From NCBI GenBank assembly GCA_947567625.1, contig CANONN010000004.1, positions 23,538 through 87,537 of the forward strand: a stretch of 64,000 nucleotides of DNA, read 5' to 3'. The notes below the pieces were generated by a model that was not told the origin of the DNA, searched no databases, and was given only the letters and a program-made list of their open reading frames with translations. Shown here piece by piece: positions 41,723 to 47,527 of this stretch; positions within the stretch are counted from its first letter, which is position 1; every line of letters starts with the position of its first letter. Made by a program: the position numbers and the translations under genes. This DNA comes from an uncultured Roseburia sp. (GTDB taxonomy: Bacteria; Bacillota; Clostridia; Lachnospirales; Lachnospiraceae).

Positions 41723-41839
41723 TGTTATTAGACGAATTCTATATTGCGAACTATTTGTAACTATAGTATATTCAATTACAAGGATAAATCCTGCAACAAT
41801 CAGTCATGCACACAAAGCAGCACAGAAATGGGGAAAATG

Positions 41840-42817
41840 ATGAAACCATTGTCGCCTAAGATACAAAATTACGATACGCAGACAGGGATTGGGAACAATC
41901 CGGTATTTATGTGGAAATACAGCAGTGAAAGACACCGTCAGACAGCATATAAAATTAATATATATCACAATGGCAGGGAGATCTATTCGACCGGCAAGGT
42001 GATGTCGGGCGAGCAGAACAATATCGCATTACATATAGATTATGAGGAGCAGACAACATATAGCTTTGACGTTACGGTATGGGACGAAAACGACCGTTGT
42101 GAGAAATCAGAGACGGCGTATTTTATTACCGGCGTGAAAAACTGGCGTGGGAAATGGATTGGAAATAATACGGCAAAACCGTTTATCGCACGAAAGATTT
42201 TTTCTGTGGAACATACGGGTAAGGCCGTGTTGTCCGTATGTGTGCCAGGACAGTTTGAGGTTAAGATCAACGGCAGGAACATAAGCCCGTACGCGTATGA
42301 GGGCAGTCAGACGGATTTTCACAAGCATATCCACTATTCGACCTATGATGTGACAGGTTTTCTTGGCGAGGGCGAAAATGAAATAACGATTGAGGCGGCA
42401 AACGGCTGGTACATAGGGGATGACGATAACGGCAAACGCTATTTTTATACCATGGATAAGGGCTATACGCCTTATGGAGACCGTCTTTTGCTGCTGGCAC
42501 AGCTTAAAATGGATGACCAATATATCGTCTCAGACCAATCGTGGGAGGTAAGCAGAAGTAAAACGGTGTTTGCCGATATATACGGCAGTGAGGATATGGA
42601 CAATACGGTTGCGTACGAGTGGAGCGGTGCGAAAACGGCAGAACCGCCGGAGGGGGAACTGATCGCCCTCGATTATCCGCCCGTCATCCGCAAGTATTGT
42701 TATGAGCCGAAATCGGTAGACAGAGAACGAATGATTTTTGATTTTGGGCAGAATATGTCCTCGCAATTTTATATTAAGCTCAAAGGCAGGCGCGGTCAGC
42801 GCGTCAAACTGAGGTAG
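41840..42817 (+). pseudogene. Truncated alpha-L-rhamnosidase (GH78), N-terminal part only
   Basis: 325 codons covering the N-terminal fibronectin-like and Bac_rhamnosid_N domains of a GH78 enzyme: NPVFMWKYSSERHRQTAYKI, WRGKWIGNN, GYEGSQTDFHKHIHYSTYDVT-type region, NGWYIGDD and the start of the next beta domain at FDFGQNMSSQFYIKLKG. GH78 proteins run to about 900 aa and need the downstream (alpha/alpha)6 barrel with catalytic Glu, which is absent. The frame stops at TAG right where GC content drops and the restriction-modification island begins. An insertion or deletion removed the rest, and no matching 3' part is in the window. Confidence 0.8.
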
Positions 42818-43002: not shown

Positions 43003-43512
43003 TTATTTTTCATTCCATCCTGACTCATAATATCTAAGAATTTGACCAATTTCTATATTTGAGTATCTTGTCTGCACTAAATAATTTTCTAATATACTCC
43101 AAACATTATCAAACGCATCATTTGAAGGCGGAAAAATATCAGCTGTTGTATTTTCTCTATATCTTTTTACCTCAAACCCAAAATCATACACCAATGAATG
43201 CATATAATCATTAGAATTCACTCGATATGTTATAGCCCCTGTTCCTGCACTTTTAGCATCATACCAATCACTAAATGCTGATTTTAAATAAGATTCCTTA
43301 CCATAATAATGAATTCTTCCTTCTTTTCCCCATGCCCCTTGTTTATCATTTCTTTCAAAATGGAGTTCAATTAACCCATTATTATTTATATTCCTATAAT
43401 GAATCGTATTTGCCAAATACCCCAATGCAAAAGCAAAATTTTCCCACGAACGGTACGCTATACCTGAAAGACCCCAACGTGGATTATTGGTTCTGTAATC
43501 TAATTGAATCAT
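43003..43512 (-). CDS. Unknown protein in the restriction-modification operon
   Basis: A 169-aa soluble protein I do not recognise. It is rich in Tyr, Asn and Trp, without membrane segments or an obvious nuclease motif. GGAG lies 8 nt before ATG 43512. It is the last gene of the minus-strand run HTH-methyltransferase-HNH, 96 nt beyond the HNH stop, with the same low GC content. It may be a second restriction subunit, an immunity factor or a passenger. No function can be claimed. Confidence 0.6.
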   Translation of the reverse strand: MIQLDYRTNNPRWGLSGIAYRSWENFAFALGYLANTIHYRNINNNGLIELHFERNDKQGAWGKEGRIHYYGKESYLKSAFSDWYDAKSAGTGAITYRVNSNDYMHSLVYDFGFEVKRYRENTTADIFPPSNDAFDNVWSILENYLVQTRYSNIEIGQILRYYESGWNEK

Positions 43513-43607
43513 GCCTATTCTCCTATATTTATTTTCTTTATATATATGCATTATATTCCTAAAAAATTTAAAAACATTCTATGATTAATTCTTCTATTTA
43601 TCACTTT

Positions 43608-44825
43608 CTACGCATAAAATTTTTCAATCCTATTTAGCAATCCATCAAAGTCCATTTCCTGAATATCAAAAAATTCCTCTGTGCCTAAACCAGTATTTAA
43701 CACTATCTGATACAAATAAAAATCATAAATAATGGGTTCTTCTTTCTTACCTAATAGATTATCTCTAATAGTTCCAGTTTTTGCGACCAAACAAAGATAC
43801 TGATACATTCTATCAATATATTGTGTATTATTATTTGGATGAGCGTATAAAAGGTGCTGTGTAGGTGTCAATGCTATTAAATTCTCTAAATAATCCGCAA
43901 TTATGGGGAATTCATTTACAGGAAATATATGATGTATCTGAGTTGCTATATCCATACTATGTCTTTCATCAAATAACTCTGTTTTACTTTCACGATACAA
44001 ATCATTAAATCTACGCAAGTTTTTCTTTGCACGGTTGATGCGATATGCAGTCAAATAATCATCATCCAATTTGGGTGATGTAATTTCATAATCAGCTCTT
44101 GTCACATCTTTGGGCTTTTCTGATAATATATCCCGCCAGTTTTTCTGATTATACATAATCATGTCTTGTGTAATAATATCTTTTGACAAATGCCCTCTTT
44201 CAGTTCCACATTTCTTATACTTGCACGCTAAAGGATTTAATACTTTAGTGAAAATACGTCCACACTCTGTTGCTCCATTGATTGGGGTATTGTTAATTGT
44301 AAAATTTGTATACGCATCCTTTAATTCCTTGAAACTACTTTTATTCTGCAATCTGAAAAAATACTCAAACATTCTATACATATCGCTGTCTTTAAGTACC
44401 TTTTCAATGTAAAGGCAAAGAAAATTAAAGCTATTTCTTTCTCTAAAGCTTATATATTCAAGCAATTCTTGATTCACAATCGAATATGTATATCTATTTC
44501 CGCTTTTTTCACCATGAATTATGTTTGCTGCATCCAACAATTTAATTGGTTGTCCAAAATATTTGTCATATTCGTTGGATGCTTTTTGTGTAGGATCTGG
44601 TTTACTAAAAATTTGTTGAACATTTTCTATAGTATACTCATTATACCAAATATCATTTACTGTAAATGTCTTATCCGGCTTATTTCTTATGTATTCCACA
44701 ATACAATCTGATACCAGGCACAGAACATCCATCGTACACTTTTGATCTATCCATCGTCCATTATGTGTCTTTCGTATATCATAATCATGTTCATTCAAAA
44801 ACTGTTGTATAATTGTATTATCCAT
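43608..44825 (-). CDS. HNH restriction endonuclease (predicted)
   Basis: A 405-aa protein with an HNH nuclease core: HHIFP at residues 298-302, Asn 315 in ENLIALTP and His 324 in PTQH. The N-terminal two thirds (starting with a DIRKTHNGRWIDQKCT block) would recognise DNA and match no domain I can name. Its start overlaps the methyltransferase stop by 8 nt, so the two are translated together, the classic layout of a type II system. Type IIS enzymes such as Eco31I are known HNH nucleases with separate m5C and m6A methylases. The cleavage site cannot be deduced. Confidence 0.75.
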   Translation of the reverse strand: MDNTIIQQFLNEHDYDIRKTHNGRWIDQKCTMDVLCLVSDCIVEYIRNKPDKTFTVNDIWYNEYTIENVQQIFSKPDPTQKASNEYDKYFGQPIKLLDAANIIHGEKSGNRYTYSIVNQELLEYISFRERNSFNFLCLYIEKVLKDSDMYRMFEYFFRLQNKSSFKELKDAYTNFTINNTPINGATECGRIFTKVLNPLACKYKKCGTERGHLSKDIITQDMIMYNQKNWRDILSEKPKDVTRADYEITSPKLDDDYLTAYRINRAKKNLRRFNDLYRESKTELFDERHSMDIATQIHHIFPVNEFPIIADYLENLIALTPTQHLLYAHPNNNTQYIDRMYQYLCLVAKTGTIRDNLLGKKEEPIIYDFYLYQIVLNTGLGTEEFFDIQEMDFDGLLNRIEKFYA

Positions 44826-47340
44826 TGTAGCACCTTTTTAACACTCCATAAAAAAATACACTTGTGGCATCTACATTTAGCGAACGTGTTTGATAATTTC
44901 TTGCTATCTGATAAAAATGACGATATTCTTCTGTCGAAAAATATTCCAGTTGTTCTTCTGTCAGTTCCATTTCTTCTTTTGGTATCAAAACTGCAACAGA
45001 ACCATTAACCACAATATTTTCCCTGTTACGCATTACTCTTGGCTTATATGTCATATTAGGTGTAAGATAAACATTTTCATTTCCAACATACTTATATGCA
45101 CTAAGTTCTTCCGCAGTGTCCTTTTTGATATAAGTGTCATATCCCGGAATATCAATAATCTCTTTTCCATCATCACTAATATTCCTCGATTTGATAACTC
45201 TTAGGCAATCCTTACCTTTCTTTTGCATTGTGTTAGAGTTTGTTATTTGTCTATCCCTAAATACCTTAAACTTATCAAAATCCAGCCTATGTGAAATTTT
45301 ATCAAAAAACTCATCTCTATAAATAATCCAATATGGATATTTCTTATCAGTAATATATCCCTGTTTTTGAATTATACTTCGCTTCAATGTCAGCGACTCA
45401 ACTATCGTATCTTTTGGCTGACTTTTTGTATCAATAAACATACATATCGTTTCCACCAACACACCCTTAAATCCGTTCTCTCCATAATCCTGAATACAAT
45501 CAATTTTGTTGGTCGAAAGCAATTCTCTTGTAGAAGTAAACTCCGGCGTATTCAATACAGCCTTGGGCATTATCATCACAACATAATCGGATATTAATAT
45601 TGATTTCTCCAAAAAAAATTCAAAGGTATTTGTGGTGTTTTTATTTATATTATTTTTTAGATATTTGGCAGCATCTTTTGCCCTAAGTTTAGAAAATGGT
45701 GGATTACCAATAACTAAATCGTATCTTTTAGCAAATTTATACAAAAGCATATCTTCATTAATAAAATTCAAGTTTACATTAACAGGTTTTTTCTGCTTTT
45801 GTAATAATAGTTTAAGAATCTGCAAATTCTTTTCGTCAATATCTACCACATCAACATTTACTTTTTTTATTCTTTCATATTTCTTGAAAATAAATGGCAA
45901 AAAATTACCCACACCAACCGATGGCTCCAGTATATTTAGTTCATCTTTATCAAACTCAGGTAACTGCTTAAATATTTCATTTACAATAAACTTATTTGTA
46001 TAATATGCAGCATTATTTTCTCTTTTTGAATTTGTTATTTCTGCAATACGCGCCAAAGAAGCTCTTCCTAAATTGAGAGGATTTCGCAGAATGAACTCCA
46101 TTGATTTTTCAATATCTGCTAATTGATATTTTTCTATTGTTTTATTTATCATTGCATTTGTGAAATGTCCTTGTTCCATAAAATTGTTAATATTACAAGC
46201 AATCTGATAAAAAATTTCTGTAGGAACTGCTTCTCCTATACTTTGTCTTATTTTTATTTCTTCTTTTTTTAATAATGCTTTCTTACTCTTTTCTGGTAAT
46301 GCATTAAGTTCTTCTAACGATTTATCCACCCATTTAAATTCATTAGGAATTGTCATCATTTTCATCAATTCGCGAATTGAAAACACTCTATCTTCTTCTG
46401 GATGAATAGTATTTTGACTTGCCAATTGATCATTCCTTGTATGAATACATGGAGCAACTTTGTTCCAATACTGACGAGTATATTTATCTCCATTCTTTTT
46501 TTTATTAGGAATAATCTTGCCATCTACAACTTTATGTGGATATTTCATTATATCTTCATTATCAAAAGCGGACTCCCCCTCTTTCAAATCGTGAATCCAA
46601 CAACGCATTTCTTCAGGATATGTTCTAAAGGCATGAAAAAAATCGGATGGACATATCTCGCCCCATTCCAATTTTGGCATATCACTTATAATTTGTTTTA
46701 AATTCTTTTCCTCCACATAAGTAGGATATAATTCTATTGGTGCAATATACTCTGCCATCTCTTTGCTAAGACCAATAACAATTGTACGAGTTCTTGACGA
46801 ATTTGAACCGTAATTTTTAAAATTAAGTATTCTACTAACAATTACATATTTCTCACTTAATTCTTCCTCAATAACATTTCCTATAGCTTTCACGCTACCA
46901 TCTGGTGCGGTACATCCTGTCTTCATAAATGCAGCTACATTTTCAAAAATAAAGAATCTTGGATTTATTTTTTGAATCAAATGTATTGATTCTACAACTA
47001 AACTATTTCGCTCTATCTCGTTTTCTGTCTTTTTATGATTTGCAACAGACATGCCCTGACATGGCGGAGTTGCCACTAAAACATCAACTCTATCGTTACC
47101 AAGTTTTTCCCAGATTTTAATTTCTGTAAAAATTTTTTCCTTTGTTTCTTCTGTTGCTATATCATCACAAATATATCCTGATTCAAACTTACATTTTTTA
47201 TTTAATTTTTGAACATTTAATCTTCTTTCAATCAACTCATTTGTTGCTATACATTCAAATCCAGCTTTCTTAAATCCAAAACAACCGACTCCAGCACAAC
47301 TAAAAAGACTAATATATGTTAATGTTTTATCTTTTAACAT
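44818..47340 (-). CDS. Fused DNA cytosine-C5 and adenine-N6 methyltransferase
   Basis: An 840-aa two-enzyme fusion. Residues 1-400 are a C5-cytosine methyltransferase: motif I FSCAGVGCFGFKKAGF (13-28), catalytic Cys94 in PPCQG (92-96), ENV (133-135), SRTRTIVIG (182-190) and IGEAVP (368-373). Residues 400-840 are a gamma-class N6-adenine methyltransferase: AYYTNKFIVNEI, motif I LEPSVGVGNF (471-480) and catalytic NPPF (546-549). Both active sites look intact. GAGGTG precedes ATG 47340. Asymmetric type IIS sites often need an m5C on one strand and an m6A on the other, and one polypeptide could do both. Confidence 0.9.
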   Translation of the reverse strand: MLKDKTLTYISLFSCAGVGCFGFKKAGFECIATNELIERRLNVQKLNKKCKFESGYICDDIATEETKEKIFTEIKIWEKLGNDRVDVLVATPPCQGMSVANHKKTENEIERNSLVVESIHLIQKINPRFFIFENVAAFMKTGCTAPDGSVKAIGNVIEEELSEKYVIVSRILNFKNYGSNSSRTRTIVIGLSKEMAEYIAPIELYPTYVEEKNLKQIISDMPKLEWGEICPSDFFHAFRTYPEEMRCWIHDLKEGESAFDNEDIMKYPHKVVDGKIIPNKKKNGDKYTRQYWNKVAPCIHTRNDQLASQNTIHPEEDRVFSIRELMKMMTIPNEFKWVDKSLEELNALPEKSKKALLKKEEIKIRQSIGEAVPTEIFYQIACNINNFMEQGHFTNAMINKTIEKYQLADIEKSMEFILRNPLNLGRASLARIAEITNSKRENNAAYYTNKFIVNEIFKQLPEFDKDELNILEPSVGVGNFLPFIFKKYERIKKVNVDVVDIDEKNLQILKLLLQKQKKPVNVNLNFINEDMLLYKFAKRYDLVIGNPPFSKLRAKDAAKYLKNNINKNTTNTFEFFLEKSILISDYVVMIMPKAVLNTPEFTSTRELLSTNKIDCIQDYGENGFKGVLVETICMFIDTKSQPKDTIVESLTLKRSIIQKQGYITDKKYPYWIIYRDEFFDKISHRLDFDKFKVFRDRQITNSNTMQKKGKDCLRVIKSRNISDDGKEIIDIPGYDTYIKKDTAEELSAYKYVGNENVYLTPNMTYKPRVMRNRENIVVNGSVAVLIPKEEMELTEEQLEYFSTEEYRHFYQIARNYQTRSLNVDATSVFFYGVLKRCYNG

Positions 47341-47350
47341 TTCAAACACC

Positions 47351-47527
47351 TCATTTATTATGATTATTTTTTCTGGCATCTGTAGGTTTTTCAGAATTAT
47401 AAGGAATAAGCCATGTTTTGCCTTTCTTTACAACACCGACTATCCGCCCTTGTTCACATAAAACAGCTATTCTTCTTGAGGTAATTCCCCACTTTTTAGA
47501 CATTTCAATTGTTGTTAAATACTCCAT
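47351..47527 (-). CDS. Small HTH protein (MerR/excisionase-like), candidate controller
   Basis: A 58-aa DNA-binding protein. The helix-turn-helix is TIEMSKKWGITSRRIAVLC, followed by a wing, GRIVGVVKKGKTWLIP. This compact MerR/excisionase-like type is common next to mobile and modification genes. It is the first gene of the island operon, with GGAG 8 nt before the ATG, and its stop is 10 nt before the methyltransferase start. A role like the C proteins that time restriction-modification expression is inferred; C proteins proper are of another HTH family. Confidence 0.75.
   Translation of the reverse strand: MEYLTTIEMSKKWGITSRRIAVLCEQGRIVGVVKKGKTWLIPYNSEKPTDARKNNHNK

Follow-up and report, generated by a model that had tools for sequence, protein, structure and literature searches.

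A predicted type IIS restriction-modification system with a fused m5C and m6A DNA methyltransferase, related to HpyAV and Hin4II, in an uncultured Roseburia genome

The window analysed here is a 64,000-nucleotide stretch of DNA from an uncultured Roseburia sp. (GenBank assembly GCA_947567625.1, contig CANONN010000004.1, positions 23,538 to 87,537). Its minus strand carries the gene M, whose single product joins a 5-methylcytosine (m5C) to an N6-methyladenine (m6A) DNA methyltransferase, followed by the gene R, which encodes an HNH endonuclease. Judging from their sequences, M and R very probably constitute a complete type IIS restriction-modification (RM) system of the HpyAV/Hin4II family, with a methylation mechanism that acts on both strands.

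44818..47340, minus strand: M, fused m5C and gamma-class m6A DNA methyltransferase, 840 residues (Pfam, PADLOC, motifs)
46156..47340, minus strand: m5C half of M, residues about 1-395 (PF00145, PDLC03370, canonical motif order)
47056-47067, minus strand: PPCQ of the m5C half (motif position)
44821..46050, minus strand: m6A half of M, residues about 431-840 (PF07669, PDLC03382, motifs)
45694-45705, minus strand: NPPF of the m6A half (motif position)
43608..44825, minus strand: R, HNH type IIS restriction endonuclease of the HpyAV/Hin4II family, 405 residues (PDLC03488 and an alignment of 15 sequences)
43854..43934, minus strand: HNH catalytic core of R, H298 H299 ... N315 ... H324 (HH-x15-N-x8-H)

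The fused methyltransferase and the endonuclease

The open reading frame (ORF) of M runs uninterrupted along the minus strand; read on the plus strand, this stretch has many stops. A longer in-frame ORF of 853 residues begins at an ATG at position 47379. The start at 47340, giving 840 residues, is the likelier one, because GAGGTG is found six bases 5' of this ATG and the interval between the two candidate starts overlaps a small upstream ORF.

Two Pfam domains are recognized in M: PF00145 (DNA_methylase, E 6.6e-34) at residues 21-394 and PF07669 (Eco57I, E 5.2e-11) at residues 509-634, both in the 853-residue numbering. In the 840-residue numbering, the m5C half has motifs I (FSCAGVG, 13), IV (PPCQ, 92), VI (ENV, 133), VIII (SSRTRT, 181), IX (FSIREL, 320) and X (GEAVP, 369), in the canonical order I to X; the m6A half has an X-like AAYYT (444), motif I (EPSVGVG, 472) and motif IV (NPPF, 546), in the gamma-class order. 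These motif names and class labels are those that we take to apply, and we likewise presume, from gamma-class enzymes generally, that the target recognition domain (TRD) of the m6A half lies in its C-terminal ~200 residues. An original prediction, made from the letters of the window and covering M without R, had placed both methyltransferases in one polypeptide at 44818..47340, with C5-cytosine methylase motifs in residues 1-400 and a gamma-class adenine methylase with NPPF in residues 400-840. Pfam, PADLOC and the motifs bear out this anatomy for both halves, and its coordinates are exact. A frameshift between the halves, which would have contradicted that prediction, is countered by the intact ORF and by the recurrence of the fused full-length form in 30 of the 38 RM loci that we compared. 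This recurrence rules out that the fusion arose by chance, by a frameshift or by a local sequencing artefact.

R lies directly after M in the same direction and overlaps its end by 8 nt. It matches the PADLOC endonuclease model PDLC03488 (REase_II) with an E-value of 2.4e-160, and PADLOC type II models cover both M and R almost from end to end. A match to the PADLOC endonuclease family was obtained in one of 21 relatives, the window genome itself, and in none of 14 named control genomes. Searches of R against Pfam and NCBIfam gave no match at E 0.1, and those against sequences in the Protein Data Bank (PDB) gave none at E up to 1, so no solved structure is available for R by sequence. The HH-x15-N-x8-H core (residues 298-324) does not vary among the 15 sequences aligned, which include the R of the window, and the spacing of H298, H299, N315 and H324 is identical to that of H294, H295, N311 and H320 in HpyAV (residues as reported in PMC2816704).

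Family membership and the predicted site

The HpyAV endonuclease recognizes CCTTC and cuts 6/5; it is an HNH enzyme, in which the four residues named above were mutated (PMC2816704). According to the same source, its partner M.HpyAV (hp0054 of Helicobacter pylori 26695) is a fused m5C/m6A methylase of 823 residues, its isoschizomer Hin4II, from Haemophilus influenzae RFL4, has two separate methylase genes of 387 and 445 residues, and Table 2 has 11 fused members including HpyAV, most of them putative. Single-molecule real-time (SMRT) sequencing assigned to M.HpyAV the methylation of both strands in vivo: m5C at 5'-CCTTC was seen at 1198 of 1304 sites (91.9%), and m6A on the GAAGG strand at 1252 of 1304 (96.0%) (PMC3936762).

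Three PADLOC models describe M of the window: PDLC03277 (MTase_II) covers it whole (E 1.3e-293, model positions 1-821 of 823), PDLC03370 (387 positions) its m5C half (E 5.7e-170) and PDLC03382 (445 positions) its m6A half (E 1.2e-129). The lengths of these models are equal to those published for M.HpyAV, M1.Hin4II and M2.Hin4II (PMC2816704, Table 2). As in HpyAV, M is a single polypeptide of about 820-840 residues with the m5C part before the gamma-class m6A part, and R, with the same HNH spacing, adjoins it downstream in the same direction, like hp0053 after hp0054. The system differs from HpyAV by a helix-turn-helix-like gene before M, by a gene after R that we call X, and by its probably clostridial host. 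With Hin4II it shares homologous m5C, m6A and endonuclease proteins, the 387- and 445-position models fitting the two halves of M; it differs in that the methylase genes are fused, whereas in Hin4II, and likewise in four of the 38 loci, they are separate.

Full-length similarity was followed through a stand-in for the named HpyAV and Hin4II sequences, the M of locus L071. This M has 822 residues from its ATG, and the R beside it is in two pieces. An ORF 1.8 kb beyond the end of M matches, over its first 189 residues, the M1.HpyAVI structures 5HEK and 5HFJ (417 bits; both structures and hp0050 are M1.HpyAVI according to PMC5173035); from this neighbour we infer that L071 is a H. pylori-like copy of an HpyAV-type locus. 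M of the window aligns with it end to end, with 53.8% identity over 821 positions. With region borders set by motif positions, identity in the m5C part is 60.5% for the catalytic region, 58.0% for the variable region and 63.2% for motifs IX-X; in the m6A part it is 46.3% for the catalytic region and 53.2% for the C-terminal region, and in the linker 38.0%. Conservation of the two TRD regions is thus close to that of the catalytic parts.

Altogether, M is an ordinary member of the already described HpyAV/Hin4II family, of which the first characterized system is that of Helicobacter pylori, and its fusion is not in itself new. Since its identity to the L071 enzyme is 54% and its TRD regions are conserved about as well as its catalytic parts, we predict with good confidence that the site of the system is exactly CCTTC/GAAGG. 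Chan et al. (PMC2816704) suggest that CCTTC may be common to relatives whose M proteins are 42-98% identical.

By analogy with these relatives, the site, the methylated C and A, the cleavage and a role in defence would be as follows. The fused M would bind the asymmetric CCTTC/GAAGG site; its N-terminal half would methylate a cytosine of the CCTTC strand at C5 through Cys94 of PPCQ, and its gamma-class C-terminal half an adenine of the GAAGG strand at N6 through NPPF. One translation product would in this way provide both protective marks at a fixed 1:1 ratio. R would then cut unmodified DNA a few bases from the site (6/5 in HpyAV) and, as a trait of the family, would be active with Ni, Mn or Co. 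The original prediction of an asymmetric site, in which a single protein modifies C in one strand and A in its complement, is supported to the extent that M.HpyAV is reported to work so; for the window it stays a prediction.

Several points weigh against this interpretation. The site is taken from 54% identity to the L071 M, which stands in for the named sequences. At the time of the work of Chan et al. (PMC2816704), the size of the M.HpyAV product was without biochemical confirmation. Finally, the shortage of CCTTC in the window is mild (69 occurrences against 89.6 expected, rank 15 of 512 5-mer pairs), too weak to support CCTTC as the site.

It is worth asking whether the family and the two-strand mechanism hold with a site that differs from CCTTC by at least one base. 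The same mild depletion and the identity of just 53.8% to an HpyAV-type M would suit such a variant, and a one-base difference is allowed for two more distant endonucleases by Chan et al. (PMC2816704). On the other side, conservation is roughly level between the TRD regions and the catalytic ones, and in the variable region of the m5C half 38 of 112 residues (201-312) are invariant across 12 aligned M proteins, the window included. A change of site is usually accompanied by a diverged TRD, and we regard a variant site as unlikely. Less likely still is that M is an orphan epigenetic regulator beside an inactive endonuclease. Among the 38 loci, R was not found in L060, L078, L079 and L080, is in pieces in L071 and L077 and has an internal gap in L067, which would be in line with orphan methylases in this family; R of the window is nonetheless a full-length ORF of 405 residues that keeps its catalytic and other invariant residues.

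Fused methylases are also known from another group. M.Esp3I and M.BsmBI are gamma-m5C fusions, each one polypeptide that serves a type IIS site (PMC3874165), so that M might be placed in or near the Esp3I/BsmBI/Eco31I group, which is the textbook case of such a fusion. The order of domains is however opposite: in M.Esp3I the gamma-class part comes first (PMC3874165) and the m5C part is C-terminal and circularly permuted (PMC5944983), whereas in M of the window the m5C part comes first, with canonical motifs I to X. Domain order and motif order reject membership of the Esp3I/Eco31I group, to which we give next to no credence, and the two types of fusion would seem independent. The rarity of fused type IIS methylases that the original prediction had implied was overstated, given M.Esp3I and M.BsmBI and the 11 fused members of PMC2816704, Table 2.

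The assignment to the HpyAV/Hin4II family extends the known m5C-m6A double methylase to a probably clostridial host, which is of modest weight; it also yields a concrete predicted site, CCTTC/GAAGG, that could be read off a long-read methylome. As the family has both fused and split forms, it offers a natural comparison for a benefit of fusion, such as balanced protection of the two strands.

Distribution of fused and split forms

At E 1e-60, relatives of M occur in six of 200 genomes of the host family, its own included. In the phylum to which a Sulfurovum relative belongs, 21 of 397 genomes have one, among them that relative itself; several of these 21 are partial or broken. A scan of genome contigs returned eight loci, seven with a full-length M and one with a weak partial match (L010, left out further). 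The closest M genes are found in metagenome-assembled genomes (MAGs) of uncultured Clostridia and Eubacterium. Among plasmids, 278 records match M; of the 20 listed, two have a match that spans 80% or more of the query, a third is cut by the start of its record, and the other 17 match essentially the m5C half alone. A phage collection has 104 matching records, of which two, unannotated clones of faecal origin, align over 80% or more. Two stretches of IMG/VR viral contigs fit the pattern of M, and neither was confirmed as a relative.

The 40 stretches examined amount to 38 RM loci: L056 is without an RM system, and L057 and L058 are counted as one locus on two contigs because their pieces of R (1-119 and 116-404) fit together. 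Besides the 30 fused full-length forms, M is split in four loci (L009, L011, L013, where the first half is cut by the record start, and L059) and truncated or broken in four more (L077-L080). The fused forms include three from genomes with one stop in the matched stretch (G005, G647 and G694), whose ORFs (L060, L063 and L068) still span nearly the whole profile. R adjoins M in 34 of the 38 loci, and the two share a strand in 33 of these 34, L012 being the exception; contig ends cut R in L006 and L075. The decayed relative L078 (5277-6735, minus strand) has the start of an HpyAV-type m5C domain, followed by what appears to be a different m5C methylase, with no R found.

We built midpoint-rooted FastTree phylogenies, one for each half of M, with the published Hin4II split left out. 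The split forms make up one clade, with support of 0.99 in the m5C tree (three split tips) and 0.91 in the m6A tree (four split tips); next to this clade stands the fused L060, a sister placement supported at 0.16 and 0.98, respectively. Within this sample M has thus undergone one split, or one fusion.

Protein X and the flanks of the locus

The following features flank M and R.

43003..43551, minus strand: X, 182-residue protein, candidate accessory gene (no known family; relatives beside RM loci)
47351..47527, minus strand: 58-residue helix-turn-helix-like protein, candidate transcriptional control gene, just upstream of M (HTH_17)
41744-42817, plus strand: N-terminal fragment of an alpha-L-rhamnosidase, ending within a concanavalin-like domain, shortly ahead of the low-GC RM block

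X of the window has no match in Pfam, NCBIfam, PADLOC or PHROGs. Its family stands beside RM genes in nine of the 38 loci: the window, L003, L007, L012, L013, L015, L058 (genome G177), L073 and L074. It lies upstream of M in L007 and between M and R in L073 and L074; in L058 and L003 it is joined to an HNH nuclease, L003 having a stand-alone X too. The HNH label is given in L003 by weak matches (PHROG, E 9.5e-05; Pfam HNH, 0.07, below the cut-off) and in L058 by plasmid HNH endonucleases, several of which are 44-55% identical to its C-terminal part. The L058 protein matches 207 plasmid records, and the 20 listed all align from residue 94 or later, on the HNH side. All 10 aligned members share E66, N68, A73, W74, R79 and A102 (numbered as in the window), with a motif resembling E-x-N-D-x-x-G-A-W-G-x-E-x-R. 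The hosts are clostridial MAGs, Moraxellaceae plasmids and members of the Sulfurovum relative's phylum.

In the samples searched, clear matches to X are all in genomes or records that bear the RM system. PLSDB has X in two of 72,556 records, both with an HpyAV-type RM system, and the R gene in three. Among 398 genomes of the host phylum, the X profile matched the window genome alone (in the remaining 397 the search covered X and not the RM genes), and in the Sulfurovum relative's phylum it matched two of the 397 genomes, both among the 21 that are M-positive; a search with X of the window as a single protein found one of 200 host-family genomes, again its own. An association with the RM system is opposed by a weak match (E 0.0017) in genome G158 on a contig other than that of its RM genes, by the 29 of 38 RM loci with no detectable X in the stretch examined, some with short flanks, and by the absence of the X profile from 10 of the 17 RM-bearing genomes or records that were searched in full.

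Further searches added little: 25 stretches of IMG/VR viral contigs matched X and none was confirmed, the profile gave one chance-level galectin match in the PDB (E 0.43), and a fold model from three sequences was too poor for use (mean pLDDT 46.0, pTM 0.37). A term search within PMC2816704 found no description of X, and the wider literature search was not aimed at it; X may be described somewhere, and its novelty is possible. Tentatively, and with somewhat more doubt than belief, we propose X as an unrecognized third protein family of HpyAV-type systems that acts with M or R. It might, for example, bind DNA as their partner, or control the timing or the safety of the endonuclease; we would favour an accessory role towards R, in DNA binding or regulation. 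HNH-joined X next to two HpyAV-type systems hints at a second nuclease arm. If X is truly a working component, it would add a new element to type IIS systems.

The 58-residue protein upstream of M matches HTH_17 with E 0.00052 and 20.7 bits, under the curated cut-off of 27, and is possibly a control gene. Upstream of M in 12 loci, sequences in L003, L005 and L057 resemble it, and L054 and L060 have other helix-turn-helix types. Together with X, it probably belongs to the same cassette as M and R.

The GC content of the block at 43003-47379 is 30.5%, against 48.6% for the whole window, so the RM system was probably acquired horizontally. The remainder of the rhamnosidase gene was not seen (no intact homologue was used as a query), and the fragment has a relative in none of 40 other genomes at E 1e-60.

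Near the RM genes of two Moraxellaceae loci (L009, 9761-10339, and L012, 7187-7765, both on the minus strand) lies a hypothetical protein of 193 residues, similar by eye between the two; the L012 copy has no Pfam or PHROGs match. In the whole window, GATCC/GGATC is the lowest of the 512 5-mer pairs, with 21 occurrences against 101.5 expected under a Markov model, which may reflect another past or present restriction system in the lineage.

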